DNA from: an uncultured Prevotellaceae bacterium
GTDB taxonomy: Bacteria; Bacteroidota; Bacteroidia; Bacteroidales; Bacteroidaceae
Assembly (NCBI GenBank): GCA_900315095.1
Contig: OMXS01000007.1
Location: 62,001-126,000, forward strand
Direction of reading: 5' to 3'
DNA: 64,000 bases
Shown here: positions 5,650-57,059 of the stretch, piece by piece
Layout: each line of letters starts with the position of its first letter
Position numbering within the stretch: the first letter of the stretch is position 1
Notes under the pieces: model-generated
What the model was told of the DNA's origin: nothing
What the model saw: the letters and a program-made list of their open reading frames with translations, nothing else
Database searches by the model: none
Made by a program: the position numbers and the translations under genes

Positions 5650-5755
5650 AATATAGAGTTAAAGATTAGAGTTATGATTACCTTTTAAGAACAGGCGTAT
5701 CATGCCTTGTTCATAGAAGTAATCATAACTCTAAACTATATACTTTCAACTCTTA
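5650..5755. repeat. palindromic element between rpsP and rho
   Basis: A perfect 15-bp inverted repeat, TAGAGTTATGATTAC (5667-5681) with GTAATCATAACTCTA (5719-5733), extends imperfectly outwards to about 5650 and 5752. An inner AACAGGC/GCCTTGTT pair lies near the centre. It sits exactly between two convergent genes. It may serve as a bidirectional terminator or may be a small repeated element of the genome. The last bases touch the rho stop codon. Confidence 0.6.
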
Positions 5756-7723
5756 AGAGTTCATGGTGAGCAGGAACTCGTCGTTGTTCCTGGTGCGCTC
5801 GATGCGGTCGTGGATGGTGTCCATTGCTTCCAGAGAAGTCATGTCTGCGATGTACTTTCTCAGTATCCACATGCGGTCGAGAGTGGTCTTGTCTTGCAGC
5901 AGGTCGTCGCGGCGTGTGCTTGATGCCACGAGGTTTACTGCAGGGAAGATGCGCTTGTTGCTCAATGAACGGTCGAGCTGGAGTTCCATGTTTCCTGTTC
6001 CCTTGAACTCCTCGAAGATCACCTCGTCCATCTTAGAACCAGTATCGATGAGTGCTGTGGCGATGATGGTGAGCGAGCCGCCGCCCTCAATGTTACGGGC
6101 AGCACCGAAGAAGCGCTTTGGCTTCTGCAGAGCATTTGCGTCAACACCACCAGTAAGCACCTTGCCACTTGCGGGGGCAACAGTATTGTATGCACGAGCC
6201 AGACGGGTGATGGAATCAAGGAAAATCACTACGTCATGACCGCACTCAACCATTCTCTTTGCCTTCTCAAGCACGATGCCTGCAATCTTCACATGGCGCT
6301 CTGCTGGCTCGTCGAAGGTAGAGGCAATAACCTCTGCGTTAACGGTGCGGGCCATATCGGTAACCTCCTCAGGGCGCTCGTCGATGAGCAACATCATGAG
6401 GTATGCCTCGGGATGGTTGGCAGCGATGGCGTTGGCGATATCCTTCATGAGGATTGTCTTACCAGTCTTCGGCTGCGCAACTATCAGCGCGCGTTGTCCC
6501 TTGCCTATAGGTGCGAAGAGGTCAACGATGCGGGTGCTGAGATTTGTTGTTTTCGGGTCGCCGCAGAGTTCGTATTTCTCGTCAGGGAAGAGTGGTGTGA
6601 GATGCTCGAAAGCCACACGGTCTCTTACCTCAGACGGCTCCCTGCCGTTGATTTTGTCGATGCTTGTAAGCGGGAAGTATTTCTCTCCCTCGCGTGGAGG
6701 ACGCACATTACATTGCAGCACGTCACCGGTCTTCAGTCCGTAGCGCTTCACCTGTGCCTGAGAAACATACACGTCATCGGGTGACGAGAGGTAGTTGTAG
6801 TCGCTTGAGCGAATGAAGCCATAGCCGTCGGGCATTATCTCGAGTACGCCGTTAGCCTTGATGATGTCGGCGAAGTCGTATTCCTCTTCGTCGCTGGCCT
6901 CGCTTTGTACAGGAGCCATTGGCTGAACTGAAGGCATGATGGGTGTGGTGGGGTTGTCGAACATGTCGTACATAGGCATAGCCGACTGGTCCTCGATGGG
7001 GAGGTCGATGGAAATAATGAAGTCTGTACCGTCACCCGGGTCGCCTTCCCATACGCTGTCTTCCAGCATGTCGCGTCTCATGTCCTCGCCTTCGTTGTGG
7101 GCATTCACCTTTGCCTGGAGTTGCTGTATGAGGTTGGTTTCCTCTTCGTTCTCCTCGTCAGGATTGCTTGTTGCAAACTCCTGTTCAGGAATGAAGTCCT
7201 CGCCGCCGTTGTCCTCAGGAGCAGTTTCCTCGTTTACTAAAGGCATTTCATCCTTTTCGGCAGCCTCCTCCTCTTCTTTTTGTTTCTGCTCTTCCAAGGC
7301 CTTTGCTTCAGCCTCCATCGCAGCGAGTTCTGCCTTTGACTTTCTGCCGCGTTTCTTTGGAACTTTCACGGGTTCCTCAGGTGCGGCCTCAGCCTCTGCT
7401 GGCGCTTCTGGTTCAGCTGGTTGCTCAGGAATATCCTTGAAGAGTTGCTGCGGCTCAGCAGCCTTTTGTTTCTTAGTGTCGAAATTCTCACCATCCTTGC
7501 CGTTGACAGAATAAACCCTGTCGGTGTCTTTCTTCTGGATGCGTGTTCTGCGGCGCTTTGTTCCAAGTGGATTTTTCTCACTTTCCACAACTGCCTGCTT
7601 ATCCAGAATGGCATAGATGAGGCTCTGCTGATCTGCTCCGTCAGGAGTGTCAGCGCCAATTTCTTTTGCGATATTTACCAGTTCGGAAATATCTTTAGAT
7701 GATAATTCGTCTATTGTGTACAT
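5753..7723 (-). CDS. rho: transcription termination factor Rho with large N-terminal insertion
   Basis: The protein has 656 residues, against about 420 in E. coli. Residues 1-45 are the Rho N-terminal helical domain. Residues about 55-285 are a highly acidic, Glu/Ala/Pro-rich insertion containing a basic AT-hook-like patch, KKRGRKSK (123-130). The cold-shock RNA-binding domain starts near [14 protein letters not shown] (292-305). The ATPase core has the Walker A QPKTGKT (417-423) and [10 protein letters not shown] (501-510). Rho is a hexameric RNA helicase that ends transcription of untranslated RNA. Such insertions are a recurrent feature of Bacteroidetes Rho and may bind nucleic acid or drive condensation. 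The start at ATG 7723 keeps the N-terminal domain intact; a promoter-like TACCTTTG lies 80 bp upstream. Confidence 0.97.
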
Positions 7724-7917: not shown

Positions 7918-8060
7918 TGCGAAAGATGTCCTTCTGCACTCTCAAAGATGTCTTTTGGGAGTATCAGATGTATACAAGTGAGGATGCCAGGAAGCACAAG
8001 TGAGGATGCCAGGAAGCACATCTGAGGAGGCTAGGAGGCTTATGCAGAGTCTCCTCAAGT
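7918..8060 (+). repeat. 22-bp-period degenerate repeat array 1
   Basis: Six consecutive units are each exactly 22 bp long: 7918-7939, 7940-7961, 7962-7983, 7984-8005, 8006-8027 and 8028-8049, with a partial unit after. Units 4 and 5 share ATGCCAGGAAGCACA and differ only in the next three bases. Others carry AAAGATGTC or AGATGTATAC at the same phase. Each unit has a purine-rich core and ends in G-rich bases on the + strand. The array fills the space between the ABC-F stop codon and the rho promoter region. Related arrays occur at 21227, 42764 and 56281. No reading frame spans it. Confidence 0.75.
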
Positions 8061-8072
8061 GTTAAGTGCAGC

Positions 8073-9893
8073 TTATTTCCCTATCTCAGAGAGTTCGAGC
8101 CAACGGAAACTCTTCTCGTCGAGTTCTTCTTTAAGTTTCGGCAGACGTATGCTCTTCTCTGTCAGTTCCTCCACGCTCAGTTTTCCGCTGCATAGTTCTT
8201 CTTCCAGCATGCGTTGCTCAGCCTCCAGAGCCTCGATGTCTTTCTCTAGTTGCTGCATCTCGCGCTGTTCCTTGAACGAAAGGCGTCGGGGACGGGAGTT
8301 TGGTTCGCGCTCTGCGGTTGCCGATGTTTTTTGTGTGTTCTTTTTCTTCTCGGTCTTTTCTTCCTCCTTGCTTTGTAGTGCCGACCATTGGCGATACTGG
8401 GTGTAATTGCCGGGGAAGTCCTTGATAGCGCCATCGCCTTTGAACACAAGCAGATGGTCGACCACCTTGTCCATGAAATAGCGGTCGTGACTTACTACGA
8501 TAACACATCCTGCAAAGTCCTGAAGATATTCCTCAAGTATCTGTAGCGTCTGTATGTCGAGGTCGTTGGTGGGCTCGTCGAGAACAAGGAAGTTGGGGTT
8601 GCGCATCAATACCGTGCAAAGATACAGCTTGCGCCGCTCACCTCCAGAAAGTTTGTACACATAGTTGTGCTGCTGCTCGGGTGTGAAGAGGAAGTGCTGC
8701 AAGAACTGCGATGCCGTTAGATGGCGCCCACTTCCGAGGTCGATATACTCGGCAATGTCTCTAACCACGTCTATTACCTTCTGCTGCTCGTTGAACTGCA
8801 AACCCTCTTGCGAGAAATATCCGAAGCGTACGGTCTCGCCGATGTCAAACTTCCCGCTGTCAGGCTTCTCGATGCCAAGAAGGAGTTTTATGAAGGTGCT
8901 CTTTCCTGTTCCGTTGTTGCCTACGATTCCCATCTTCTCATAACGGGCGAAGTTATAGTAGAAGTCCTTTAGGATTGTTACCGATGACTGCTCGTTGCCG
9001 AAAGACTTAGAGACATACTGGCACTCGAAAATCTTGCTGCCTATGTAAACGTTGCTGCGGCGCAACCTCATCTGGCGTTCCTCGATGCGTTGCTTTGCCA
9101 CTCGTTCAAGGTCGGCAAAAGCCTCTTCGCGATAGCGCGCCTTGTGGCCTCGTGCCTGCGGCTGCCGTCTCATCCATTCCAGTTCTCTGCGGTACAGGTT
9201 GTTTGCTCGTGCTATTTCCGCCCGTTTGTTGTCAATACGCTCCTGACGTTTCTCAAGATAGTAACTGTAGTTGCCTCGGTAGGTGTATATCGTCTGGTCG
9301 TCGAGTTCCATTATGATGTTGCACACTCGGTCGAGGAAGAAACGGTCGTGAGTGACCATCAGCAGAGTCTTGTTTCCACGGCTGAGGAACCCCTCGAGCC
9401 ATTCAATCATTTCAAGGTCGAGGTGGTTGGTGGGCTCGTCAAGGATAAGAAGGTCTGGCTCTGTGATGAGAACATTGGCAAGAGCCACGCGTTTCTGTTG
9501 GCCGCCGCTCAGTTCGCGCATTGGCTGCTCGAGGTTTCTTATCTTCAGTTTTGTGAGGATTTGCTTTGCTTTCAGCATTTTCGCATCCCTTTCAGCCCTG
9601 TCGTCATCCTCTTTTATAGTGGTGCGGAAGCATGCGTCAAGAACGCTCTCGTCGGGATTGAAATTAGGCGACTGCATGAGGTATCCCACTCGAAGGCCCT
9701 TTCTGAAAATGATGTCGCCGCTGTCATAGCCCTCGTTGCCGTTAATAATAGAAAGGAGAGTGCTCTTGCCTGTTCCGTTCTTGGCAATAAGTCCCACACG
9801 CTGCCCCTCGCCAATGCTCATGTTAAGGTTTTCAAAGAGCAATAGTTCTCCGAAGGACTTCGTAAGGTTCTGTATGTCAAGATATGGGTTCAT
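8073..9893 (-). CDS. ABC-F family ATPase, Uup-like
   Basis: The 606-residue protein has two ATP-binding cassettes and no membrane segment, the layout of ABC-F proteins that act on the ribosome or on branched DNA. The first cassette has Walker A GLIAKNGTGKSTLL, signature LSGGQQKR and LLILDEPTNHLD. The second has GIVGNNGTGKSTF, LSGGERRK and LVLDEPTNDLD. The linker between them contains the basic ARGHKARYREEAF stretch. The last 100 residues form a charged coiled coil, which points to the Uup branch. It starts 2 bp after the engB stop codon, so the two are surely co-transcribed. It could also be an antibiotic-resistance ABC-F, but the coiled coil and chromosomal setting argue for housekeeping. 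Confidence 0.9.
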   Translation of the reverse strand: MNPYLDIQNLTKSFGELLLFENLNMSIGEGQRVGLIAKNGTGKSTLLSIINGNEGYDSGDIIFRKGLRVGYLMQSPNFNPDESVLDACFRTTIKEDDDRAERDAKMLKAKQILTKLKIRNLEQPMRELSGGQQKRVALANVLITEPDLLILDEPTNHLDLEMIEWLEGFLSRGNKTLLMVTHDRFFLDRVCNIIMELDDQTIYTYRGNYSYYLEKRQERIDNKRAEIARANNLYRRELEWMRRQPQARGHKARYREEAFADLERVAKQRIEERQMRLRRSNVYIGSKIFECQYVSKSFGNEQSSVTILKDFYYNFARYEKMGIVGNNGTGKSTFIKLLLGIEKPDSGKFDIGETVRFGYFSQEGLQFNEQQKVIDVVRDIAEYIDLGSGRHLTASQFLQHFLFTPEQQHNYVYKLSGGERRKLYLCTVLMRNPNFLVLDEPTNDLDIQTLQILEEYLQDFAGCVIVVSHDRYFMDKVVDHLLVFKGDGAIKDFPGNYTQYRQWSALQSKEEEKTEKKKNTQKTSATAEREPNSRPRRLSFKEQREMQQLEKDIEALEAEQRMLEEELCSGKLSVEELTEKSIRLPKLKEELDEKSFRWLELSEIGK

Positions 9894-13382: not shown

Positions 13383-13457
13383 GGTGCGTTAGTTCAGCCT
13401 GGTTAGAATGCCTGCCTGTCACGCAGGAGGTCACGGGTTCGAGTCCCGTACGCACCG
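13383..13457 (+). tRNA. tRNA-Asp (GTC), copy 1
   Basis: The 75-base cloverleaf has acceptor GGTGCGT/ACGCACC, anticodon stem CCTGC/GCAGG with loop CTGTCAC (anticodon GTC), and T-loop GGTTCGAGTCC. CCA is not encoded. It is identical to copy 2, which lies 42 bp further on. Confidence 0.96.
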
Positions 13458-13499
13458 CATAGATGTTCCTACATTGTTTCTGAAAGCAAAATCAGCGCT

Positions 13500-13574
13500 G
13501 GTGCGTTAGTTCAGCCTGGTTAGAATGCCTGCCTGTCACGCAGGAGGTCACGGGTTCGAGTCCCGTACGCACCG
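13500..13574 (+). tRNA. tRNA-Asp (GTC), copy 2
   Basis: Base-for-base the same as copy 1. It is followed directly by a terminator. Its 3' end plus that terminator is duplicated 131 bp downstream. Confidence 0.96.
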
Positions 13575-13606
13575 CATAAGGAAGTCTCAAGAGGACTTCC
13601 TTTTTT
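13557..13606 (+). repeat. direct repeat A: tRNA-Asp 3' end plus terminator
   Basis: Fifty bases, from CGAG in the T-arm through the terminator T run, recur exactly at 13688-13737. A tRNA 3' end repeated in this way is the usual mark of an integrase attachment site. Confidence 0.7.
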
Positions 13607-13607
13607 T
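13578..13607 (+). terminator. tRNA-Asp terminator
   Basis: AAGGAAGTC pairs with GACTTCCTT around a TCAAGAG loop, followed by a T run. Confidence 0.85.
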
Positions 13608-13687
13608 GTGCGTCCGCTCCTCTCACTTCGTGACCTCATCGGTCAGGGTTCTTTCTCCGCTTCGCTATGAAAGCGGCAAGCCGAGCG

Positions 13688-13705
13688 CGAGTCCCGTACG
13701 CACCG
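13688..13705 (+). pseudogene. tRNA-Asp 3' remnant
   Basis: The last 18 bases of tRNA-Asp (T-arm 3' side and acceptor strand) stand alone, with unrelated sequence replacing the rest of the tRNA. The 82 bp between the two direct repeats (13607-13687) shows no gene. Confidence 0.7.
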
Positions 13706-13737
13706 CATAAGGAAGTCTCAAGAGGACTTCCTTTTTT
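13688..13737 (+). repeat. direct repeat B: tRNA-Asp 3' end plus terminator
   Basis: Exact second copy of 13557-13606, including the hairpin terminator AAGGAAGTC/GACTTCCTT at 13709-13737. Confidence 0.7.
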
Positions 13738-13797
13738 GTAACCGTTAGTACAAAACGATTGAAATACAAAAGAAATCAGTATATTTTTAACTGAAAA

Positions 13798-13829
13798 TTT
13801 GGTTGTGCACATAAAAATGCCTACCTTTG
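13798..13829 (+). promoter_or_regulatory. tRNA-Arg promoter
   Basis: TTTG (13798-13801), a 20-bp spacer and TACCTTTG (13822-13829), 15 bp before the tRNA. Confidence 0.7.
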
Positions 13830-13844
13830 CACCCGATTTATGAT

Positions 13845-13919
13845 GGTTCCGTAGCTCAGTTGGATTAGAGCAACAGCCTTCTAAGCTGTGGGTCTTGGGT
13901 TCGAACCCCAACGGAATCA
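13845..13919 (+). tRNA. tRNA-Arg (TCT)
   Basis: The 75-base cloverleaf has acceptor GGTTCCG/CGGAATC (one G-T pair), anticodon stem ACAGC/GCTGT with loop CTTCTAA (anticodon TCT, reading AGA), and T-loop GGTTCGAACCC. Confidence 0.95.
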
Positions 13920-19859: not shown

Positions 19860-21188
19860 TCAGGAGACATTGCTGTATCGTCTCGGATACCTGAAAATGA
19901 TGGAGAGCGTGCCCGCAAAGAATATTGCAATGGGGTAGTAGAGCCGCGGCACAATCTCAATTGGGTTAAGAGCGGCGAGTCCTGCTGCCATGAGTATTTG
20001 CGCCCCGTATGGTATTAGTCCCTGCATAGAGCATGAGAAGACGTCGAGAATGGAAGCGCTCTTGCGCGGGTCAATGCCGAAGCGTTCGGCTATGTTCTTG
20101 GAAATGCCTCCAACGGTAAGGATAGCAACGGTGTTGTTGGCGGTGCACAGGTCAACCACACTCACCAGAGCGGCAATAGAAAACTCGGCTCCTCGCTTGC
20201 CGTTAATCTTCTTTGTTAAGCGGCTGATAATGAAGTCGATACCTCCATTTTCTTTAACAATCTCTAAAAGACCGCCAGCCATCATCGTGATGATGATAAG
20301 CTCGCCCATTCCCACGATGCCTTCACCCATCGAACCGAACCATCCGTAAAGGTCATAAGAGCCCATGCACATGCCGATGATGCCCGTCAGAATGATGCCT
20401 ATGGTGAGTACCGTCATCACGTTGACACCCAGTACCGCCGTGACAAGAACGGCAAGATAGGGTAGCACCTTCACTATGCTTACCTCTCCCACCTCTGTGG
20501 GCTTGGCGATATCTGCTCCGATGAAGATATAGATGATAAGTATAACGATGGCGGCAGGCACCACGATGAAAGAGTTTGCCTTGAACTTGTCGTTCATCTT
20601 GCATCCCTGAGTCTGCGTGGCCACGATGGTGGTGTCGGAGATGAACGAGAGATTGTCGCCGAAGAACGAGCCTCCAACGACCACAGCCGTTATCATGGCC
20701 GCATCGGTGCCCGTCTGCTGAGCCACGCCGGCGGCAATAGGCACCAGCGCCACTATAGTGCCGACGCTCGTTCCTATTGAAAGCGATATGAAGCAGGCGG
20801 CTATGAAAAGTCCTGCCAGAATCATGTTGCTCGGAAGGATGCTTAGAGTGAGATTCACGGTGGCGTCGATGCTGCCAATGGTCTTCGCGGAGTTAGCAAA
20901 CGCCCCTGCAAGAACGAAAATCCACAGCATCAGTATCAAGTTGCCTGTGCTTGCTCCTCGGCTGAACACCTCAATTCGCCGCTTAAGAGGAATGCCGTGA
21001 AGCACGGCCACAGCATAGATGCTTGCTATCATGAACGCCACGGTGATGGGCACTTTATAGAAATCCATCGCCACAAGACTTGTGACGAGATAGATAAGTA
21101 CAAATACAAGAAGAGGCGACAATGCCAGCATGCCCCTCTTCTTGCTTATTCTCTTTTCTCCTTTCTGTCTTGTAGTGCCGTTTTCCAT
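19860..21188 (-). CDS. NhaC family Na+/H+ antiporter
   Basis: The 442-residue polytopic membrane protein has about 11 hydrophobic helices and NhaC-type motifs such as SIGTSVGTIVALVPIA, GGSFFGDNLSFISDTT and the late DLCTANNTVAIL. It exchanges sodium for protons across the inner membrane. I chose ATG 21188 (MENGTTRQKGEK). The longer frame to 21299 runs back through the 22-bp repeat array and is not credible. It follows uxaA on the same strand with the array between. Whether it serves uronate uptake or is merely adjacent is not clear. Confidence 0.87.
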   Translation of the reverse strand: MENGTTRQKGEKRISKKRGMLALSPLLVFVLIYLVTSLVAMDFYKVPITVAFMIASIYAVAVLHGIPLKRRIEVFSRGASTGNLILMLWIFVLAGAFANSAKTIGSIDATVNLTLSILPSNMILAGLFIAACFISLSIGTSVGTIVALVPIAAGVAQQTGTDAAMITAVVVGGSFFGDNLSFISDTTIVATQTQGCKMNDKFKANSFIVVPAAIVILIIYIFIGADIAKPTEVGEVSIVKVLPYLAVLVTAVLGVNVMTVLTIGIILTGIIGMCMGSYDLYGWFGSMGEGIVGMGELIIITMMAGGLLEIVKENGGIDFIISRLTKKINGKRGAEFSIAALVSVVDLCTANNTVAILTVGGISKNIAERFGIDPRKSASILDVFSCSMQGLIPYGAQILMAAGLAALNPIEIVPRLYYPIAIFFAGTLSIIFRYPRRYSNVS

Positions 21189-21226
21189 CGTGCCGTACTT
21201 TAATTTCCTACATATATTCCACTCTC

Positions 21227-21336
21227 TCGCATAACACCATCTTTCGGCTTGCAAAAGAGCACTTTTGAGGTTGTCAAAAGGCATCTCTGAGGATCCCAAA
21301 GATGCCCTTTGGCATGTTCATTTGTATACCTTTTAC
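21227..21336 (+). repeat. 22-bp-period degenerate repeat array 2
   Basis: Five units of exactly 22 bp are 21227-21248, 21249-21270, 21271-21292, 21293-21314 and 21315-21336. Typical words are CAAAAGAGCAC, CAAAAGGCATCTCTGAGG and CAAAGATGCCCTTTGG. The last unit overlaps the uxaA stop codon (21333-21335). Same family and same orientation as the arrays at 7918, 42764 and 56281. Confidence 0.7.
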
Positions 21337-22829
21337 AGCGTCACTCCATTCTTGAAGATGGAGATTTCACTATATCCGTTCTTCTCATTCTGTGCCTTCT
21401 CGCCGTTCGCAACGCTGATAATCTTATCGATGAAGCGTGCAAGAAGGTCTTTCATTGGCGTTCCCTCAACCAACTCGCCTGCGTTGAAGTCAATCCAGTT
21501 GGGCTTGTTCTTCGCGAGATTGCTGTTGGTTGAAATCTTCATGGTTGGGATGAAGGTGCCGAAGGGCGTTCCACGGCCCGTTGTGAAGAGCACAATCTGG
21601 CAACCAGCCGATGCGAGGGCGGTGGCCGCCACGAGGTCGTTGCCTGGTGCTGAGAGCAGGTTGAGTCCGTTCGTCTGCAGGCGGTCGCCATATTCGAGCA
21701 CTCCGCTCACCTGTGCGCGTCCGCATTTCTGGGTGCATCCCAGAGCCTTGTCCTCGAGTGTGGAGATACCTCCCGCCTTGTTGCCTGGCGAAGGATTCTC
21801 TCCAACGGGCTCGCCGTGACTGAGGAAATACTCCTTGAAGTTGTTTATGAGGCTTACCGTCTGATTGAACAGTTCTGGTGTCTTGCATCGGTTCATGAGA
21901 ATTGTCTCTGCTCCGAACATTTCAGGCACCTCGGTAAGTATTGATGTTCCGCCCTGTGCAACAAGATAGTCGGAGAACTCGCCAACGAGAGGGTTGGCTG
22001 TGATGCCGCTGAAGCCGTCGCTACCGCCGCACTTCAAACCTACGCGCAGTTTGTCGAGAGGGCACTCTGTGCGCTTGTCCTGACGTGCTATTGCGTAAAG
22101 TTCGCGAAGAACTTTCATGCCTTCCTCCACCTCATCGCCCACTACTTTCTGCGTGATGAGGAACTTGATGCGCTCCTTGTCGTAGTCGCCCAACAGTTGC
22201 TCGAACTGGTCAGGCTGGTTGTTCTCGCAGCCGAGGCTAAGCACGAGCACCGCTCCTGCATTGGGGTGAAGCACAATATCGCGGAGCACCTTGCGGGTGT
22301 TCTCGTGGTCGCCCGATAGTTGTGAGCATCCATAGTTATGATGCCAAGCATGAACGGCGTCTATTCCATCAAGCCCTGTTTCCTTCTCGAGCATTGAAGC
22401 CAGACGTTCGGCAATGCCGTTAACACATCCCACGGTTGGCACAATCCATATCTCGTTGCGCACACCCACCTCGCCGTTCTTGCGAACATAGCCGTTGAAG
22501 GTGCGGTTTTCCTTGGGGATGTCGAGAGCATCGTCAACGGGGTTATACTCATAGTTGAGTGTTCCCGCGAGATTAGTCTTCAGGTTGTTCTCGTTCACCC
22601 ATTCGCCGCTTTTGAGGTCGGCCATTGCGTGTCCGATGGGGTAGCCGTACTTGATGATGTTCTGCCCTTGCTTAGCGTCGTCGATAAGAATCTTGTGGCC
22701 TGCCGGGGTGTCTTGTTTCACTTCGATAGTTTTGCCGTCGATGCTGATTGTTTCGCCTTTAGCAATTGGGCGGAGGCAAACAATCACGGAATCGAGCGGA
22801 TTGATTTTGATAAATGCTGATTGTTCCAT
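21333..22829 (-). CDS. uxaA: altronate dehydratase (UxaA)
   Basis: The 498-residue protein has an N-terminal SAF-type domain (1-95, with AKGETISIDGK) and the large UxaA/GarD catalytic region. Motifs seen are GEVGVRNEIWIVPTVGCVNG, YGCSQLSGD and LSLGCENNQ. The enzyme dehydrates D-altronate to 2-keto-3-deoxygluconate in galacturonate breakdown. The product is the substrate of KdgK, encoded across the divergent promoter region. A GarD-type galactarate dehydratase is the alternative, but the KDG kinase and KDPG aldolase nearby favour altronate. It follows lacI by 72 bp with no promoter seen, so the two form an operon. Confidence 0.92.
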   Translation of the reverse strand: MEQSAFIKINPLDSVIVCLRPIAKGETISIDGKTIEVKQDTPAGHKILIDDAKQGQNIIKYGYPIGHAMADLKSGEWVNENNLKTNLAGTLNYEYNPVDDALDIPKENRTFNGYVRKNGEVGVRNEIWIVPTVGCVNGIAERLASMLEKETGLDGIDAVHAWHHNYGCSQLSGDHENTRKVLRDIVLHPNAGAVLVLSLGCENNQPDQFEQLLGDYDKERIKFLITQKVVGDEVEEGMKVLRELYAIARQDKRTECPLDKLRVGLKCGGSDGFSGITANPLVGEFSDYLVAQGGTSILTEVPEMFGAETILMNRCKTPELFNQTVSLINNFKEYFLSHGEPVGENPSPGNKAGGISTLEDKALGCTQKCGRAQVSGVLEYGDRLQTNGLNLLSAPGNDLVAATALASAGCQIVLFTTGRGTPFGTFIPTMKISTNSNLAKNKPNWIDFNAGELVEGTPMKDLLARFIDKIISVANGEKAQNEKNGYSEISIFKNGVTL

Positions 22830-40909: not shown

Positions 40910-41203
40910 ATGAATAATAAAGACTTCATACACCAATTGTCATTGCGGCTGGGCATCACTCACGAAGAGGCACAGGCCACAATGAACAAGACAATAGACA
41001 TCATGGGCGATGTCTTTCAGGAAGGTGACTCAATACAGATGCCTAACTTTGGCACTTTCGAGGTGAAGAAGAGACTCGAGCGTATAGTTGTTAATCCAGG
41101 CACAAAACAAAGGATGCTCGTTCCGCCCAAACTCGTGTTGGGGTTCAAACCCGTTGCTTCTTTGAAAGAGAAACTAAAGAATGGAGGGGCAGGCAATGAG
41201 TAG
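40910..41203 (+). CDS. HU/IHF family DNA-binding protein
   Basis: The 97-residue protein has the HU dimer fold: NNKDFIHQLSLRLGITHEEA at the N-terminus and MPNFGTFEVKKRLERIVVNPGT in the beta arm. It bends DNA in the nucleoid or at specific sites. It overlaps the next gene by 8 bp, and that gene also begins with an HU domain. The pair may form a heterodimer. Confidence 0.9.
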   Translation: MNNKDFIHQLSLRLGITHEEAQATMNKTIDIMGDVFQEGDSIQMPNFGTFEVKKRLERIVVNPGTKQRMLVPPKLVLGFKPVASLKEKLKNGGAGNE

Positions 41204-42749
41204 AATATCCATACAAGAGTTCGCAGAGCGACTTGCCGAGAGAAAAGGCATGAGCGTCTCCGATGCCCAGCAGTTCCTGACGGCTATGCTCGACACTATT
41301 AACGAGGGTCTTAAGGACGATAAAACCGTTAAGGTGAAAGGGCTTGGAACGTTCAAGGTAATTGACGTTAAACAGCGCAAGAGCGTGGATGTTAACACCG
41401 GCGAGGAGATTATAATTGAAGGCAGAGGGAAAATAACGTTCACCCCCGATTCGATTATGAAAGACCTGGTGAACAAACCCTTCTCGCAATTCGAGACGGT
41501 GGTGCTTAACGAAGGTGTTGACTTCTCCGAAATTGACTCTATGGAGGGCGAAGATGAAGAACCTACGGATGATGTTGAAATAACAGAAAATGAAGAGCAG
41601 CACGAAGAAATAATAGAGACAAAAGCAGATGAAGTGCCTCATGTTGCCGCGATTATGGGTAGCGAGGTGCCTGAAATAGAACCCGAAACAGGCGAAGAGG
41701 TAAGCAACGATGCTCCCGAAGCCGTTTCTGATGAGTCGTTCAGCGAGGCTTTGCTCGTGCTGGATTACATCAACGGAAAAGAGATGCCGCAGGAAACACC
41801 TGCAGAAGAGCCGAAGGAAGAGGGCCTTGATGCGACGGATGAGGCCATCGCTGATGCTTTGTTCGTGGTGCACTCGCTTGATGGGGAAAAGGCTGAGAAA
41901 GTGGAAGTGCCCGTTGAAACTATAGAAGAAACGGAAGAGGCACCAGAAGTCGTAGCAGAAGAACCCTTAGAGGAAACACAGGAAGAAATTCCAGATGAAG
42001 TTACTGAAGAGCCTTCAATTACCGAAGAGCCAGAACCCGTTGCGGAAGAACTGGAAGAACCGGTCAAGGAAGCTATCGTTGAGGAAGAAGAGAAACCAGA
42101 ATCCGTTGAAACGCCAACGGAACAAATATATGACAATAGTGATGACGAGGAACCGTCGAGCACGTGGAAACGCTGGCTGATAGCCATTGCGTTGATAGCC
42201 GTTGTCGGTCTATTGTCATATTATTGCATCAATTTCTTCAACCACAAGGAGTCACTTGCCAACGAGGAACTTAACAATAATGCCTTAGCGGTTGATAGTC
42301 AGAAGGTGGCAAACGAGCATCCGTCTGATTCCGTAGCCTCCGTTGACTCTCTGGCAATAATGAAACGTGAGAAGGAAATCGAAGATTCTATCACGGCAGT
42401 TGCAATGAAGAATAAGGCCGAAGGCGCTAAAAAGGAAACTGTAGCGAAGCCCGAGCAAAAGCCCGTGGCCGTAACTCCTGCACCAAGCAAGCCGCAACAA
42501 GCCGCTCCAACTACAAATAAGGAGCTTGAATACGCTAAAAGGCTTGTGCAATATGGCGCTTATAACATTGTAGGAACCGACAAGGTAATTACCGTTAAGA
42601 AAGGACAGACAATGACATCTGTCGCAAAGGCTTATCTTGGACGCGATATGGCGTGCTACATCGAAGTGCATAACGGCACCACAACATTGATAGAAGGACA
42701 AAAACTCAAGATACCTAAACTTCAAACAAAAAAGAAGTCAAGAAGATAA
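41196..42749 (+). CDS. HU-domain protein with acidic linker, membrane helix and LysM-like C-terminus
   Basis: From ATG 41196 (517 residues), residues 1-90 are an HU-like DNA-binding domain (AERKGMSVSDAQQFL, then VKGLGTFKVIDV). Residues about 95-325 are a very acidic Glu-rich stretch with the repeated element EALLVLDYI/DALFVVHSL. One membrane helix follows (about 327-349). The C-terminus has VKKGQTMTSVAKAYLGRDMA and GQKLKIPKL, a LysM-like module. The predicted topology puts DNA binding inside and a wall-binding module in the periplasm. An alternative ATG at 41181 adds five residues; GGAGG between the two favours 41196. The 3' end is followed by repeat array 3 and a terminator. Confidence 0.85.
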   Translation: MSRISIQEFAERLAERKGMSVSDAQQFLTAMLDTINEGLKDDKTVKVKGLGTFKVIDVKQRKSVDVNTGEEIIIEGRGKITFTPDSIMKDLVNKPFSQFETVVLNEGVDFSEIDSMEGEDEEPTDDVEITENEEQHEEIIETKADEVPHVAAIMGSEVPEIEPETGEEVSNDAPEAVSDESFSEALLVLDYINGKEMPQETPAEEPKEEGLDATDEAIADALFVVHSLDGEKAEKVEVPVETIEETEEAPEVVAEEPLEETQEEIPDEVTEEPSITEEPEPVAEELEEPVKEAIVEEEEKPESVETPTEQIYDNSDDEEPSSTWKRWLIAIALIAVVGLLSYYCINFFNHKESLANEELNNNALAVDSQKVANEHPSDSVASVDSLAIMKREKEIEDSITAVAMKNKAEGAKKETVAKPEQKPVAVTPAPSKPQQAAPTTNKELEYAKRLVQYGAYNIVGTDKVITVKKGQTMTSVAKAYLGRDMACYIEVHNGTTTLIEGQKLKIPKLQTKKKSRR

Positions 42750-42763
42750 ATATATGCTTTTAT

Positions 42764-42895
42764 AATGCAAGAGATGTCCTTTCGCATTCTCATTGATGGT
42801 CTTTCGGGTGCTGAAAGGTATACTTTTGGGGTGCTAAAAGGTATACAACTGAGCGCTGAAAGATATACTTCTGAATGCTGAAAGACACGCTTTCG
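42764..42895 (+). repeat. 22-bp-period degenerate repeat array 3
   Basis: Six units of exactly 22 bp run 42764-42785, 42786-42807, 42808-42829, 42830-42851, 42852-42873 and 42874-42895. Common words are GCTGAAAGGTATACTTTTGG and GCTGAAAGATATACTTCTG, whose AAAGGTATACTTT core is nearly palindromic. It lies between the HU-LysM stop codon (14 bp before) and the terminator at 42933. Confidence 0.75.
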
Positions 42896-42968: not shown

Positions 42969-43013
42969 AATACTTTTTAGTCGCGTTTTTTCGGTTATCA
43001 GATGTGAAATTAT

Positions 43014-43021
43014 TACTTTTG
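43014..43021 (+). promoter_or_regulatory. moxR-Bat operon promoter -7 box
   Basis: TACTTTTG, 39 bp before ATG 43061. It argues against a start at 43004. Confidence 0.55.
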
Positions 43022-43060
43022 CATCTGATTAAAGAACATAACTATATAAAAGACAAAAAT

Positions 43061-44056
43061 ATGGCAGAAGCTTTTGATATACGCGAGTTGAACAACCGTA
43101 TAGAGCAGCAGAGTTCGTTTATTAGTACCCTTACCGCGGGTATGGATCGTGTGATAGTAGGACAGAAGCACTTGGTGGATTCTCTCCTTATAGGACTTCT
43201 TAGTGACGGACACATACTTCTTGAGGGTGTGCCTGGTCTGGCTAAGACTCTTGCTATCAAAACATTGGCACAACTAATCGATGCCGATTACAGCCGCATA
43301 CAATTCACTCCAGACTTGTTGCCGGCAGACGTTATCGGAACATTGATATACTCTCAGAAAGACGAGAACTTCCATGTGAAGAAAGGTCCGGTATTTGCTA
43401 ACTTCGTATTGGCAGACGAAATCAACCGCGCTCCAGCCAAGGTGCAGAGCGCTTTGCTTGAGGCAATGCAGGAGCACATGGTCACTATAGGAAGCGAGAC
43501 ATTCAAACTTCCCAACCCATTCCTCGTTATGGCAACGCAAAACCCGATAGAGCAGGAGGGTACATACCCGCTCCCGGAGGCTCAGGTGGACCGTTTCATG
43601 CTGAAGGTTGTTATTGACTATCCTTCAATAGAGGAGGAGAAACTGATTATTCGCGAGAATCTTCAGAGTTCGTTGCCTACAGTTACGCCGGTAATCACTT
43701 CAGAGGAAATTCTCAGTGCCCGTGATGTGGTTCGCCAGGTGTACATCGACGAAAAGATTGAGCAGTATATCGCCGACATCGTTTTTGCAACACGTTATCC
43801 TGAAAAGTACAACCTTACGTCGCTTAAGGACATGATTACGTTCGGCGGTTCTCCGCGTGCGTCCATCAATTTGGCAAAGGCAGCCCGCGCTTATGCCTTC
43901 ATCAAGCGCAGAGGATATGTAGTGCCTGAGGATGTACGCGCTGTTGCCCATGACGTTCTTCGTCATCGCATCGGATTGAGTTATGAAGCTGAAGCAAGCA
44001 ATGTCACCAGCGAGGAAATCGTAAGCAAGATTATCAACAAGGTTGAGGTGCCCTGA
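43061..44056 (+). CDS. MoxR family AAA+ ATPase
   Basis: The 331-residue protein has Walker A GVPGLAKT, Walker B ADEINRAPAK and sensor 1 ATQNPIEQEGTYPLPEAQ, as in MoxR chaperone-like ATPases that work with VWA proteins. It opens the Bat operon and probably remodels or activates the VWA proteins encoded downstream. The start ATG 43061 gives MAEAFDIRELN, and a longer frame from 43004 crosses the promoter. First of a run of co-directional genes reaching 56.3 kb. Confidence 0.95.
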   Translation: MAEAFDIRELNNRIEQQSSFISTLTAGMDRVIVGQKHLVDSLLIGLLSDGHILLEGVPGLAKTLAIKTLAQLIDADYSRIQFTPDLLPADVIGTLIYSQKDENFHVKKGPVFANFVLADEINRAPAKVQSALLEAMQEHMVTIGSETFKLPNPFLVMATQNPIEQEGTYPLPEAQVDRFMLKVVIDYPSIEEEKLIIRENLQSSLPTVTPVITSEEILSARDVVRQVYIDEKIEQYIADIVFATRYPEKYNLTSLKDMITFGGSPRASINLAKAARAYAFIKRRGYVVPEDVRAVAHDVLRHRIGLSYEAEASNVTSEEIVSKIINKVEVP

Positions 44057-55364: not shown

Positions 55365-56279
55365 ATGCGCCATTTCATAAGAATTACATTACTGCTTCTC
55401 GTCTCCCTCCAATGCTATTCCCAAAGCATGAGGAAGAACGCTGCATACGAAAGATATATCGGACGGTATGCCGAGATAGCTGTTGAGCAGATGAAACTTC
55501 ATGGAATTCCAGCAAGCATCACTCTCGCCCAGGGATTGATAGAGAGTGGAGCAGGGCAGAGCGAACTGGCGCGTAAGGGCAACAATCATTTCGGAATAAA
55601 GTGTCACGGATGGCAAGGACGCAAGGTGTATCACGACGATGACCTCAGCGGAGAGTGCTTCAGAGCATACGCTACAGCCCGACAGAGTTACGAAGACCAT
55701 AGCATGTTCCTCGTGAACGGGCGCAGATACCAGAGTCTCTTCTCTCTTTCTATCAAGGACTACAAAGGATGGGCGCGCGGACTTAAGGCTGCCGGCTATG
55801 CCACAAATCCCTCTTATGCCGAAGCCCTGATAAGAATCATCGAACTATACGAACTCTATAAGTATGACGGAGGCAAGGTTATTAAGCATGAGGGACGGCA
55901 TCAACACACACAACCCACGCCTGTCGAAGAAGAGAAGTTCGGCATCTTCGTGCGCAACAAGACTCCTTATGTCGTAGTAAGGAACGGAGAGACGCTTTCA
56001 TCGATAAGCCGTATGACGGGCATCTCGGTGAGAAGGCTCGCCAAGTATAACGAGATGCCGAAGAATGCTGTGCTAAAGCAGGGCGCTCCTATCTATCTTG
56101 AGAAGAAGCAGAAGAAAGCATCTAAGGAGTATAAGGGCAAGTATCATGTTGTGAAAGCAGGCGAGAGCTTCCATTCTATAGCACAAGACTATGCAATGAG
56201 AGTGGAGACACTCTATAAGGTTAACCACCTCTCGGGCGACTACTCTTTGCAGGTGGGCGACCGTTTGCGCATCCGTTGA
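55365..56279 (+). CDS. glucosaminidase (GH73-type) with two LysM domains
   Basis: The 304-residue exported protein has a signal peptide (MRHFIRITLLLLVSLQCYS). The catalytic part has ASITLAQGLIESGAGQSELA, with the catalytic glutamate, then GNNHFGIKCHGW, SYEDHSMFL and AGYATNPSYAEALI, as in mannosyl-glycoprotein endo-beta-N-acetylglucosaminidase-like proteins. Two LysM modules (VVRNGETLSSISRMTGISVR, then VVKAGESFHSIAQDYAMRVE) bind peptidoglycan. It probably acts in wall turnover or division. Repeat array 4 begins 2 bp after the stop codon. Confidence 0.92.
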   Translation: MRHFIRITLLLLVSLQCYSQSMRKNAAYERYIGRYAEIAVEQMKLHGIPASITLAQGLIESGAGQSELARKGNNHFGIKCHGWQGRKVYHDDDLSGECFRAYATARQSYEDHSMFLVNGRRYQSLFSLSIKDYKGWARGLKAAGYATNPSYAEALIRIIELYELYKYDGGKVIKHEGRHQHTQPTPVEEEKFGIFVRNKTPYVVVRNGETLSSISRMTGISVRRLAKYNEMPKNAVLKQGAPIYLEKKQKKASKEYKGKYHVVKAGESFHSIAQDYAMRVETLYKVNHLSGDYSLQVGDRLRIR

Positions 56280-56280
56280 T

Positions 56281-56434
56281 TCCCAATGATATACCTTTCG
56301 GGTTGCGAAAAGCCATCTTTGGGAGTGTCAGGAAGCACATCTGAGCACCTCAGATGTATACAACTGGCAACCTCAGGAAGCACAAGTGGCGTTCTCAGGT
56401 GATACTCCTGACTGCCTTAGGTGATAATCCCGAC
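56281..56434 (+). repeat. 22-bp-period degenerate repeat array 4
   Basis: Seven units of exactly 22 bp run 56281-56302, 56303-56324, 56325-56346, 56347-56368, 56369-56390, 56391-56412 and 56413-56434. Words shared with array 1 include TCAGGAAGCACATCTGAG and CAGATGTATACAA. It starts 2 bp after the glucosaminidase stop codon and ends in a C-rich stretch before vsr. Confidence 0.78.
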
Positions 56435-56486: not shown

Positions 56487-57059
56487 ATGGACACGATGAC
56501 TCCTGAACAAAGGCACAGATGCATGGCGGCAATTAAGGCGAAGAACACCAAGCCGGAATTAATTGTCAGGCGATATCTGCATGCTCGCGGTTTCAGGTTT
56601 CGTCTTAACCATAAGCGTCTGCCTGGGCATCCCGACTTAGTGCTAAGGAAATACCGCACTTGCATATTCGTGAACGGATGCTTCTGGCACGGACACGGGA
56701 CGACGGTAGAAGGAGGAGAACTGCTGGAAACAAACCTCCAACACCCAACATCCATCACTCAACAGCCAACATGCACCTTTTTCAAGTTGCCAAAGAGCCG
56801 AACTGACTATTGGAGAGACAAGATAATACGCAACAAAACGCGCGACGTGAAGACTCAGAAGCAACTGGCGGCAATGGGATGGCACACAATTACGGTATGG
56901 GAATGTGAACTGAAACCCGCTCGCCGACAAGAAACTCTGGAGTCGCTTGCCTTCACTTTGAATCGCATATTTCTGAAGGACCACGAGGTGAGATATGCTG
57001 ACGTAATGGAACTTGATAACGACAGAATTATGGCTGCTGAAGAATGGAATGAACGATAG
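56487..57059 (+). CDS. vsr: very short patch repair endonuclease with insertion
   Basis: The 190-residue protein has the Vsr motifs LPGHPDLVLRKYRTCIFVNGCFWHGHG, with D50 the metal ligand, C65 and H68/H70, and late WECELK with C140. Between H70 and C96 lie about 25 extra residues (71-95) not found in the E. coli enzyme, where the histidines and cysteine are nearly adjacent. The remaining zinc ligands are kept, so activity is possible. Vsr nicks T-G mismatches made by deamination at 5-methylcytosine and is normally next to a cytosine methyltransferase gene; none is seen here. It may be a stranded part of a restriction-modification system. Confidence 0.85.
   Translation: MDTMTPEQRHRCMAAIKAKNTKPELIVRRYLHARGFRFRLNHKRLPGHPDLVLRKYRTCIFVNGCFWHGHGTTVEGGELLETNLQHPTSITQQPTCTFFKLPKSRTDYWRDKIIRNKTRDVKTQKQLAAMGWHTITVWECELKPARRQETLESLAFTLNRIFLKDHEVRYADVMELDNDRIMAAEEWNER

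Follow-up and report, generated by a model that had tools for sequence, protein, structure and literature searches.

Intergenic arrays of quasi-palindromic units in Prevotella seem to keep a 22-bp spacing while their sequence is replaced

The dRS3/NIME repeats of Neisseria are short inverted repeats with conserved ends and a variable middle that build mosaic intergenic arrays, and in this they are like the arrays described here; unlike the latter, they form one 20-bp family and no fixed-period lattice. They are targets of a phage recombinase. REP and BIME elements, mobilised by REP-associated tyrosine transposases (RAYTs), share other traits with our arrays: they are small extragenic palindromes in high copy, clustered and divided into many families (PMC3733652, PMC6006769). 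The arrays here differ in being fixed 22-bp rows, with several unrelated families of one geometry, and a Y1_Tnp gene flanked by the repeat, as in REP/BIME systems with a RAYT, is not seen. The word Prevotella is absent from the main text of both papers, and the main text of PMC2267715 lacks the words Bacteroides, Porphyromonas, Prevotella and tandem. The nearest described object known to us is BrickBuilt of Porphyromonas gingivalis, an intergenic minisatellite from the same bacterial order with a 23-nt unit whose number varies between strains (PMC4596501). It is one MITE family, with a leader, a tail and terminal repeats like those of IS5-family elements, and counts 19 elements in one strain (PMC4596501). 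Its consensus is also alike in dyad symmetry (D 0.70 versus a permuted-column mean of 0.49, p = 0.0044); a dyad-symmetric tandem unit is thus common to BrickBuilt and to the present arrays, though not in every genome, and the available text of the BrickBuilt paper yielded no mention of a palindrome or hairpin. The BrickBuilt unit, AGAYCATARTATCCTCTCRTRTG, is however unrelated to the class A and class E units described below, and while BrickBuilt copies share leader and tail, 89 of 111 array flanks in our genome resemble no other array's flank. Because defining features of BrickBuilt and of REP/BIME were tested and are not found here, we file the arrays under neither. Among the matches listed in the open-access literature, no title or abstract opening describes such arrays in Prevotella.

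The window studied here is the whole 64,000-nucleotide stretch of DNA, from a rumen-type Prevotella genome (G000, below also the own genome), and the arrays are rows of units in its intergenic regions. All four arrays of the original prediction are present. Array 1 (7918..8060, plus strand) has units at 7942-7958, 7964-7981, 7987-8003 and 8009-8025, with degenerate units on both sides and start steps of 22, 23 and 22 bp. It stands between rho (5753-7723, minus strand) and an ABC ATPase gene (8073-9893, minus strand), of the ABC-F type by our reading. Array 2 (21227..21336, plus) consists of units 21251-21268, 21274-21290, 21296-21312 and 21318-21335, with steps of 23, 22 and 22 bp; it lies downstream of an altronate dehydratase-like gene (21333-22829, minus) and upstream of a Na+/H+ antiporter gene (19860-21299, minus), whose listed start overlaps the array. 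The degenerate array 3 (42764..42895, plus), with units near 42790, 42812, 42835 and 42857, is found downstream of an HU-domain protein gene (41181-42749, plus) and upstream of a MoxR-type AAA ATPase gene (43004-44056, plus). Array 4 (56281..56434, plus) has two degenerate left units followed by units 56328-56344, 56350-56367, 56373-56389, 56395-56411 and 56417-56433, in steps of 22, 23, 22 and 22 bp, downstream of a glucosaminidase-LysM gene (55365-56279, plus). A gene for a vsr-like DNA mismatch endonuclease (56487-57059, plus) comes directly after it. The layout is as described, each array lying downstream of a gene, on the minus strand in two cases and on the plus strand in the other two; the neighbouring genes are of ordinary kinds.

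Tandem Repeats Finder alone reported only parts of arrays 1 and 3. A scan of the window for self-similarity at fixed lags returned two arrays at lag 22, one at lag 24 and none at the other lags from 18 to 26; 20 first-order Markov copies of the window gave no array at lags 22 and 23. Array 3 was found by this lag scan: its dyad is not significant (p = 0.54), and it is missed by R2, a two-unit covariance model built from 56 stretches, whose best match in the window is the pair of units at 7987..8025 (plus; 40.8 bits, E 5.1e-8). At the gathering threshold, Rfam matched the window only at three tRNA genes, with no match at the arrays; the tRNA genes stand in a row at 13383-13919 (RF00005).

The arrays had been described as keeping a strict 22-bp spacing without indels. 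This holds for 9 of the 13 steps in the window; the other four, one per array, are 23 bp. Each step of 23 comes after an 18-bp core, containing TATAC in arrays 1, 3 and 4; there is one exception to the pairing, as the 18-bp core at 42835 precedes a step of 22. The 5-bp linker between exact units is better conserved than the period. Other parts of the description stand: the words CAGGAAGCACA and AGATGTATAC recur across distant arrays (they are seen in arrays 1 and 4), and the period outlasts the drift of the sequence. The arrays are not CRISPRs either, as their units vary and their cores are separated by 5-bp linkers only, without near-identical repeats and unique spacers.

We call the units of these arrays class A. 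Each reads S-TCA-NNN-core-NNN-TGA-S, with S mostly G or C, then three more bases; in other words, a dyad unit of 19-20 bp is followed by a 3-bp spacer. From TCA to TGA the unit measures 17 bp, with GCAC or a similar centre, or 18 bp, with the centre RTATAY. In the own genome, 97 of 104 pairs of neighbouring exact units have 5 bp between TGA and the following TCA, so that a 17-bp core gives a period of 22 and an 18-bp core one of 23. Across 546,558 bases of the own genome, comprising the window and stretches picked around arrays, the start distance between exact TCA(11-12)TGA units is 22 bp in 54 cases and 23 bp in 40; every other distance from 17 to 43 occurs at most twice. A chance origin of this spacing is excluded. 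Variable periods elsewhere, against which the original prediction had been staked, appear only to the extent of 22 and 23.

The inner triplets of class A come from a small set (CTT 80, GGA 78, GAT 31 and GAA 23 of 288 arms), and CTT paired with CTT is absent among the 30 arm combinations listed. Units of other sequence stand in register inside class A arrays: class B, like GTGATTAGGCCCTAATCAC, and likewise class C, ACAAAGTTATTAACTTTGT, both of 19 bp plus 3. It is possible that a protein sits on each dyad unit.

Among 56 called arrays, 40 are scorable for orientation (two or more oriented arms), and 36 of these keep one orientation throughout; inverted units are more frequent at array ends (23/126) than inside (10/161, p = 0.0024). 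The four window arrays had been given one common orientation, which was linked to the direction of replication. Arrays 1 and 4 do agree, but the other two have no defined orientation by arm count, and what is shared may be chance. Across the genome, orientation leans with local GC skew, though not significantly: plus arrays are found in 17 skew-positive and 5 skew-negative places, minus arrays in 16 and 13 (Fisher p = 0.14), with skew measured within stretches mostly 7-20 kb long, where a weak bias could escape. Single contigs such as C37 carry arrays of both orientations. That they are replication-oriented sites is, on these data, the least credible of the readings that we weighed, with very little in its favour. 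Orientation shows no link to the direction of tandem genes either (p = 1.0).

Dozens of further arrays were expected in the genome, and they are there: R2 gives 160 matches in the own genome (150 of 1628 candidates scored), in at least about 60 places counted by eye among the matches listed. Among 61 genomes, the own and 60 relatives, R2 matches only G000 and G028, the latter treated here as one genome with Prevotella sp. UBA4330; it has no match in 35 other genomes of the genus, several of them incomplete. In a draw of 151 genomes of the family, own included and G028 not a positive among them, the own genome alone matches. An exact 19-letter pattern, searched over named genomes, was found at 22 loci. 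Prevotella sp. UBA4330 accounts for 18 of them and Prevotella sp. RGIG7809, which comes from water-buffalo reticulum, for two; Ktedonospora and Methanosarcina have a single locus each, and these we take as chance. One exact pattern searched against viral_contigs had no match.

Since units of other sequence sit in register inside class A arrays, we turned to a scan that is blind to sequence, counting 40-bp windows with at least 27 matches at a lag between 19 and 25, or at least 29 at a stricter cut. Arrays at lag 22 occur in six of the seven other genomes of the genus that were sampled, and in four of seven at the stricter cut. The own genome has 36 arrays at lag 22, 15 at 23, 6 at 21, 4 at 24 and 3 at 20. 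G026 (480 kb) has 43 at lag 22, 12 at 23, 3 at 21 and 1 at 24; G016 (400 kb), 15 at 22 and 1 at 21; G024 (400 kb), 9 at 22, 3 at 24 and 1 at 25. Among smaller samples, G010 (80 kb) shows 2 at lag 22; G003 (80 kb) 2 at 22, 2 at 21 and 1 at 23; G004 (80 kb) one each at 22 and 23; and G008 (63 kb) none at 22, with 6 at 21, 2 at 20 and 2 at 24. The stricter cut leaves 21 lag-22 arrays in the own genome, 11 in G016, 6 in G024, 2 in G010 and 7 in the first 80 kb of G026, and none in G003, G004 and G008. The own-genome sample was picked around arrays. Pooled rates are biased by G026, whose sampling was deepened once it looked rich. No array at lag 22 occurs in 362 kb from five genomes of other families; G060 does have arrays at lags 21 and 28, and G038 and G057 have theirs between 33 and 39. 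Four other genera of the same family (78 kb) gave one lag-22 array, L261 10071.

The units behind this common lag look unrelated in sequence. The family of G016 is like GTAACTTGACGCAGATTAC and that of G024 like CGTTTCTACGATCAAACG; in G026 we count at least seven unrelated families, for example AAAACGTACCTCCGTTTT, TTGGACAAACGTGTCCAA and GTATAATTNGTTATAC, by eye, and some may be distant versions of one another. Several unrelated sequence families thus share one period, within the genus and within a single genome. Arrays selected for period alone often have a dyad as well (column-permutation p < 0.05): 30/43 in G026, 7/15 in G016, 2/2 in G010, 1/2 in G003 and 1/1 in G004. In G024 it is only one of nine, the other eight being not significant, and in the own genome, where periods of 22 and 23 mix, 8 of 36, with 28 not significant. 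The best explanation of these observations is that geometry, not sequence, defines these extragenic tandem arrays of quasi-palindromic units: a dyad of about 19 bp, or 20 in some class A units, and a spacer of about 3 bp, occurring about 3 to 10 times in a row. G026 has a pair of different 22-bp families next to each other, always in one order, at three places (L206 15812-16024, L241 7619-7855 and L249 113-336), and composite arrays seem to be dispersed there too.

With genes called by a simple longest-ORF rule, 19 of the 56 class A arrays lie in convergent gaps, 28 in tandem and 7 in divergent ones, and 2 inside predicted ORFs. The lag-22 arrays are distributed as follows: in G026 (n = 43), 18 convergent, 15 tandem, 1 divergent, 6 in ORFs and 3 at edges; in G016 (n = 15), 7, 3 and 3, with 2 in ORFs; in G024 (n = 9), 3, 4 and 0, with 1 in an ORF and 1 at an edge; in the own genome (n = 36), 10, 19 and 2, with 5 in ORFs. 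Compared with all gaps of at least 130 bp, the context differs in G026 (p = 0.0015) and G016 (p = 0.028; convergent against divergent, p = 0.10), and for own class A arrays p = 0.065 (convergent against divergent, p = 0.024). Convergent gaps are preferred and, as gaps with arrays are mostly convergent or tandem, the arrays mostly lie 3' of at least one gene. The excess in convergent gaps and the shortage in divergent ones are what one would expect of transcription terminators, or of insulators between convergent genes. Gene ends next to arrays, however, have hairpins resembling intrinsic terminators about as often as other ends, or more often: at convergent ends, 10/30 versus 18/70 in G026, 8/38 versus 12/80 in the own genome and 4/14 versus 17/58 in G016; at tandem ends, 7/26 versus 14/145 in the own genome, 3/12 versus 18/142 in G026 and 0/3 versus 12/119 in G016. 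Hairpin frequency is not lowered beside arrays, hence they do not replace terminators, and we regard a terminator or insulator role as improbable.

The position of quasi-palindromes 3' of genes, with complementary outer arms, also suits RNA elements, that is rows of small hairpins in 3' UTRs that would stabilise mRNA. Untrimmed alignments show positive covariation in G026 (914/1369 versus 858.2) and in the own genome (651/1301 versus 582.7), weakly so in G016 (197/308 versus 185.8), but none in G024 (25/48 versus 26.5). In the two genomes covered by the trimmed test, the signal is gone, because it came from degenerate end rows: 789/1072 cells are paired versus 792.7 after shuffling in G026, and 174/272 versus 172.0 in G016. 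In class A, 59.1% of cells are paired versus 58.7% shuffled, though the alignment puts some 18-bp units out of place; arms within a unit are identical in 26 of 144 cases versus 24.4 expected, with no excess. Sense-strand mismatches show no G.T bias, G.T and A.C being about equally frequent (47 and 48 in G026, 43 and 47 in the own genome); without orientation, trimmed G026 arrays have 99 G.T and 65 A.C. The window arrays have no Rfam match, and altogether we think RNA elements an unlikely answer, about on a par with terminators. Most trimmed units, then, lack arm covariation; this allows a dimer site, and is no proof of one.

The sister genome lets us follow individual sites. Around 11 orthologous arrays, a set partly picked by class A matches in both genomes, the flanks of G000 and UBA4330 are 78-98% alike. 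The arrays themselves range from almost identical (L064/L112), through gain or loss of whole units or of class B units, to different along their entire length. The G028 copy of array 1 has one additional 22-bp unit. A separate and small set, of seven own-genome sites, was sought in G028 by flanks alone, and class A is kept at four of them: window arrays 2, 3 and 4 and L063 5738. The region of array 2 forms a single unbroken alignment (it is the alignment, not the letters, that tells this), array 3 is about one unit shorter, and array 4 has about one extra unit and changed arms. At L063 5738, UBA4330 keeps class A with unit changes and a class B unit. In addition, a class E array comes immediately behind the upstream gene, and the class A array is preceded by about 3.5 kb that has no match in G000. 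This stretch encodes two unnamed predicted proteins and a repeat-rich protein, BspA-like by our reading; all but about 550 bp of it was inspected by eye for a driver gene beside the class E array, and no recombinase was seen. At L084 4029 and L063 18219, UBA4330 carries class E rows instead of class A, and the gap of L084 15640 contains four class C units there, whose position does not correspond base for base to that of the G000 array.

The class E unit is AGT-NNN-N7-NNN-ACT plus three bases. Its grammar is like that of class A, with fixed outer triplets, few inner triplets and a 3-bp spacer, and at the loci examined no start spacing up to 60 bp other than 22 and 44 occurs. G028 has 37 class E matches, both strands listed, at about 20 places by eye; the whole own genome has none at E 0.01. 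Across Prevotella species, it seems, the spacing is kept while the sequence is replaced. The TCA/TGA frame diverges little between the two species (5/234, versus 321/3088 in near flanks). This looks like purifying selection, but we do not count it, because the units were picked for having that frame.

Arrays that are rewritten by whole units, some of them riding in composite repeats, bring a neutral reading close behind the protein model that we favour. The arrays would then be neutral or selfish minisatellites, short hairpin-prone sequences duplicated by replication slippage or template switching and dispersed in larger composite repeats, and their period a constraint of copying rather than a function; we find this conceivable, if somewhat doubtful. 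Apart from units gained and lost between orthologues, it draws on the local expansion of near-identical units at L022 and L029 and on flanks that resemble another array's flank (22/111 in the own genome, 50/85 in G026, 4/30 in G016). Moreover, L066 5379-5706 is a minisatellite, TTGGACATAAAGACATGTTTTG, with a 22-bp unit and no significant dyad (p = 0.15), and some arrays lie within a dispersed composite repeat, together with a REP-like pair and another minisatellite, that is present in G028 and was not found at the orthologous gap of the own genome. On the other hand, plain slippage explains neither the 22 bp common to unrelated families nor the 5-bp linkers, nor why rows of one family stand where the sister species has a different one.

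The composite repeat just mentioned is about 700 bp long and joins a GGACATAAAGACATA minisatellite, the REP-like pair, a class A/B array and further inverted repeats. We located it at L073 3600-4420, L066 5560-6300, L123, L125, L131, L133 and L142, with several copies in UBA4330; the own-genome gap in which it was not found is the one orthologous to L142. A sequence similar, by eye, to its REP-like pair flanks the single Y1_Tnp (RAYT-like) gene of the own genome, L031 1360-1899 (G000 C26:61351-61890), as the inverted pair GTAGGGGCGTACC..GTGTGCGCCC.

Small extragenic palindromes clustered near gene ends, in a genome with one Y1_Tnp gene, recall REP/BIME elements mobilised by a RAYT. Yet that gene is flanked by this different REP-like pair and not by array units; there is no Y1_Tnp match at E 0.001 in G024, nor in the most array-rich genome, G026; and G038 and G060, with six and four such matches, have no lag-22 arrays in 80-kb samples. 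Unscored inspection by eye of the G026 consensus list and of classes A and E revealed no common GTAG or CGTC end tag of the REP kind. A RAYT is thus unlikely as the general maker of the arrays: the idea is largely refuted, and we leave it only a slim chance.

Our preferred reading, to which we give a probability of roughly 0.4, is that each family represents the sites of one member of a putative family of dimeric DNA-binding or DNA-processing proteins with shared geometry and diverging specificity. We infer this model from the arrays; the proteins themselves are putative, and might resemble transposases or recombinases or bind cooperatively. A two-turn footprint of about 22 bp, common to all members, would fix the geometry, and their diverging sequence specificities would leave the sequence free. 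Arrays would be copied into tolerated gaps between genes, then lengthen or shorten by unequal exchange or slippage of whole units. One footprint with diverging specificity would yield many sequence families and their turnover between species. A point against the model is that many families per genome would require many proteins.

A bolder version, which we put forward tentatively and consider rather doubtful, would make the arrays a mobile or self-amplifying element defined by geometry only: dyads of about 19 bp at a two-turn spacing, written by putative proteins that measure about 22 bp, with new families that arise and, from one sister species to the other, supplant the old at the same intergenic sites, and BrickBuilt as a distant member.

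The usual classification of extragenic palindromes goes by sequence and links them to one transposase; here, the recurring thing is the spacing, and the sequences that come and go are unrelated. If true, this would be a bacterial repeat system that can be found by its period alone. The pair of G000 and UBA4330, with class E absent from the one and present in the other, turns the search for the protein into a finite comparison of gene content.
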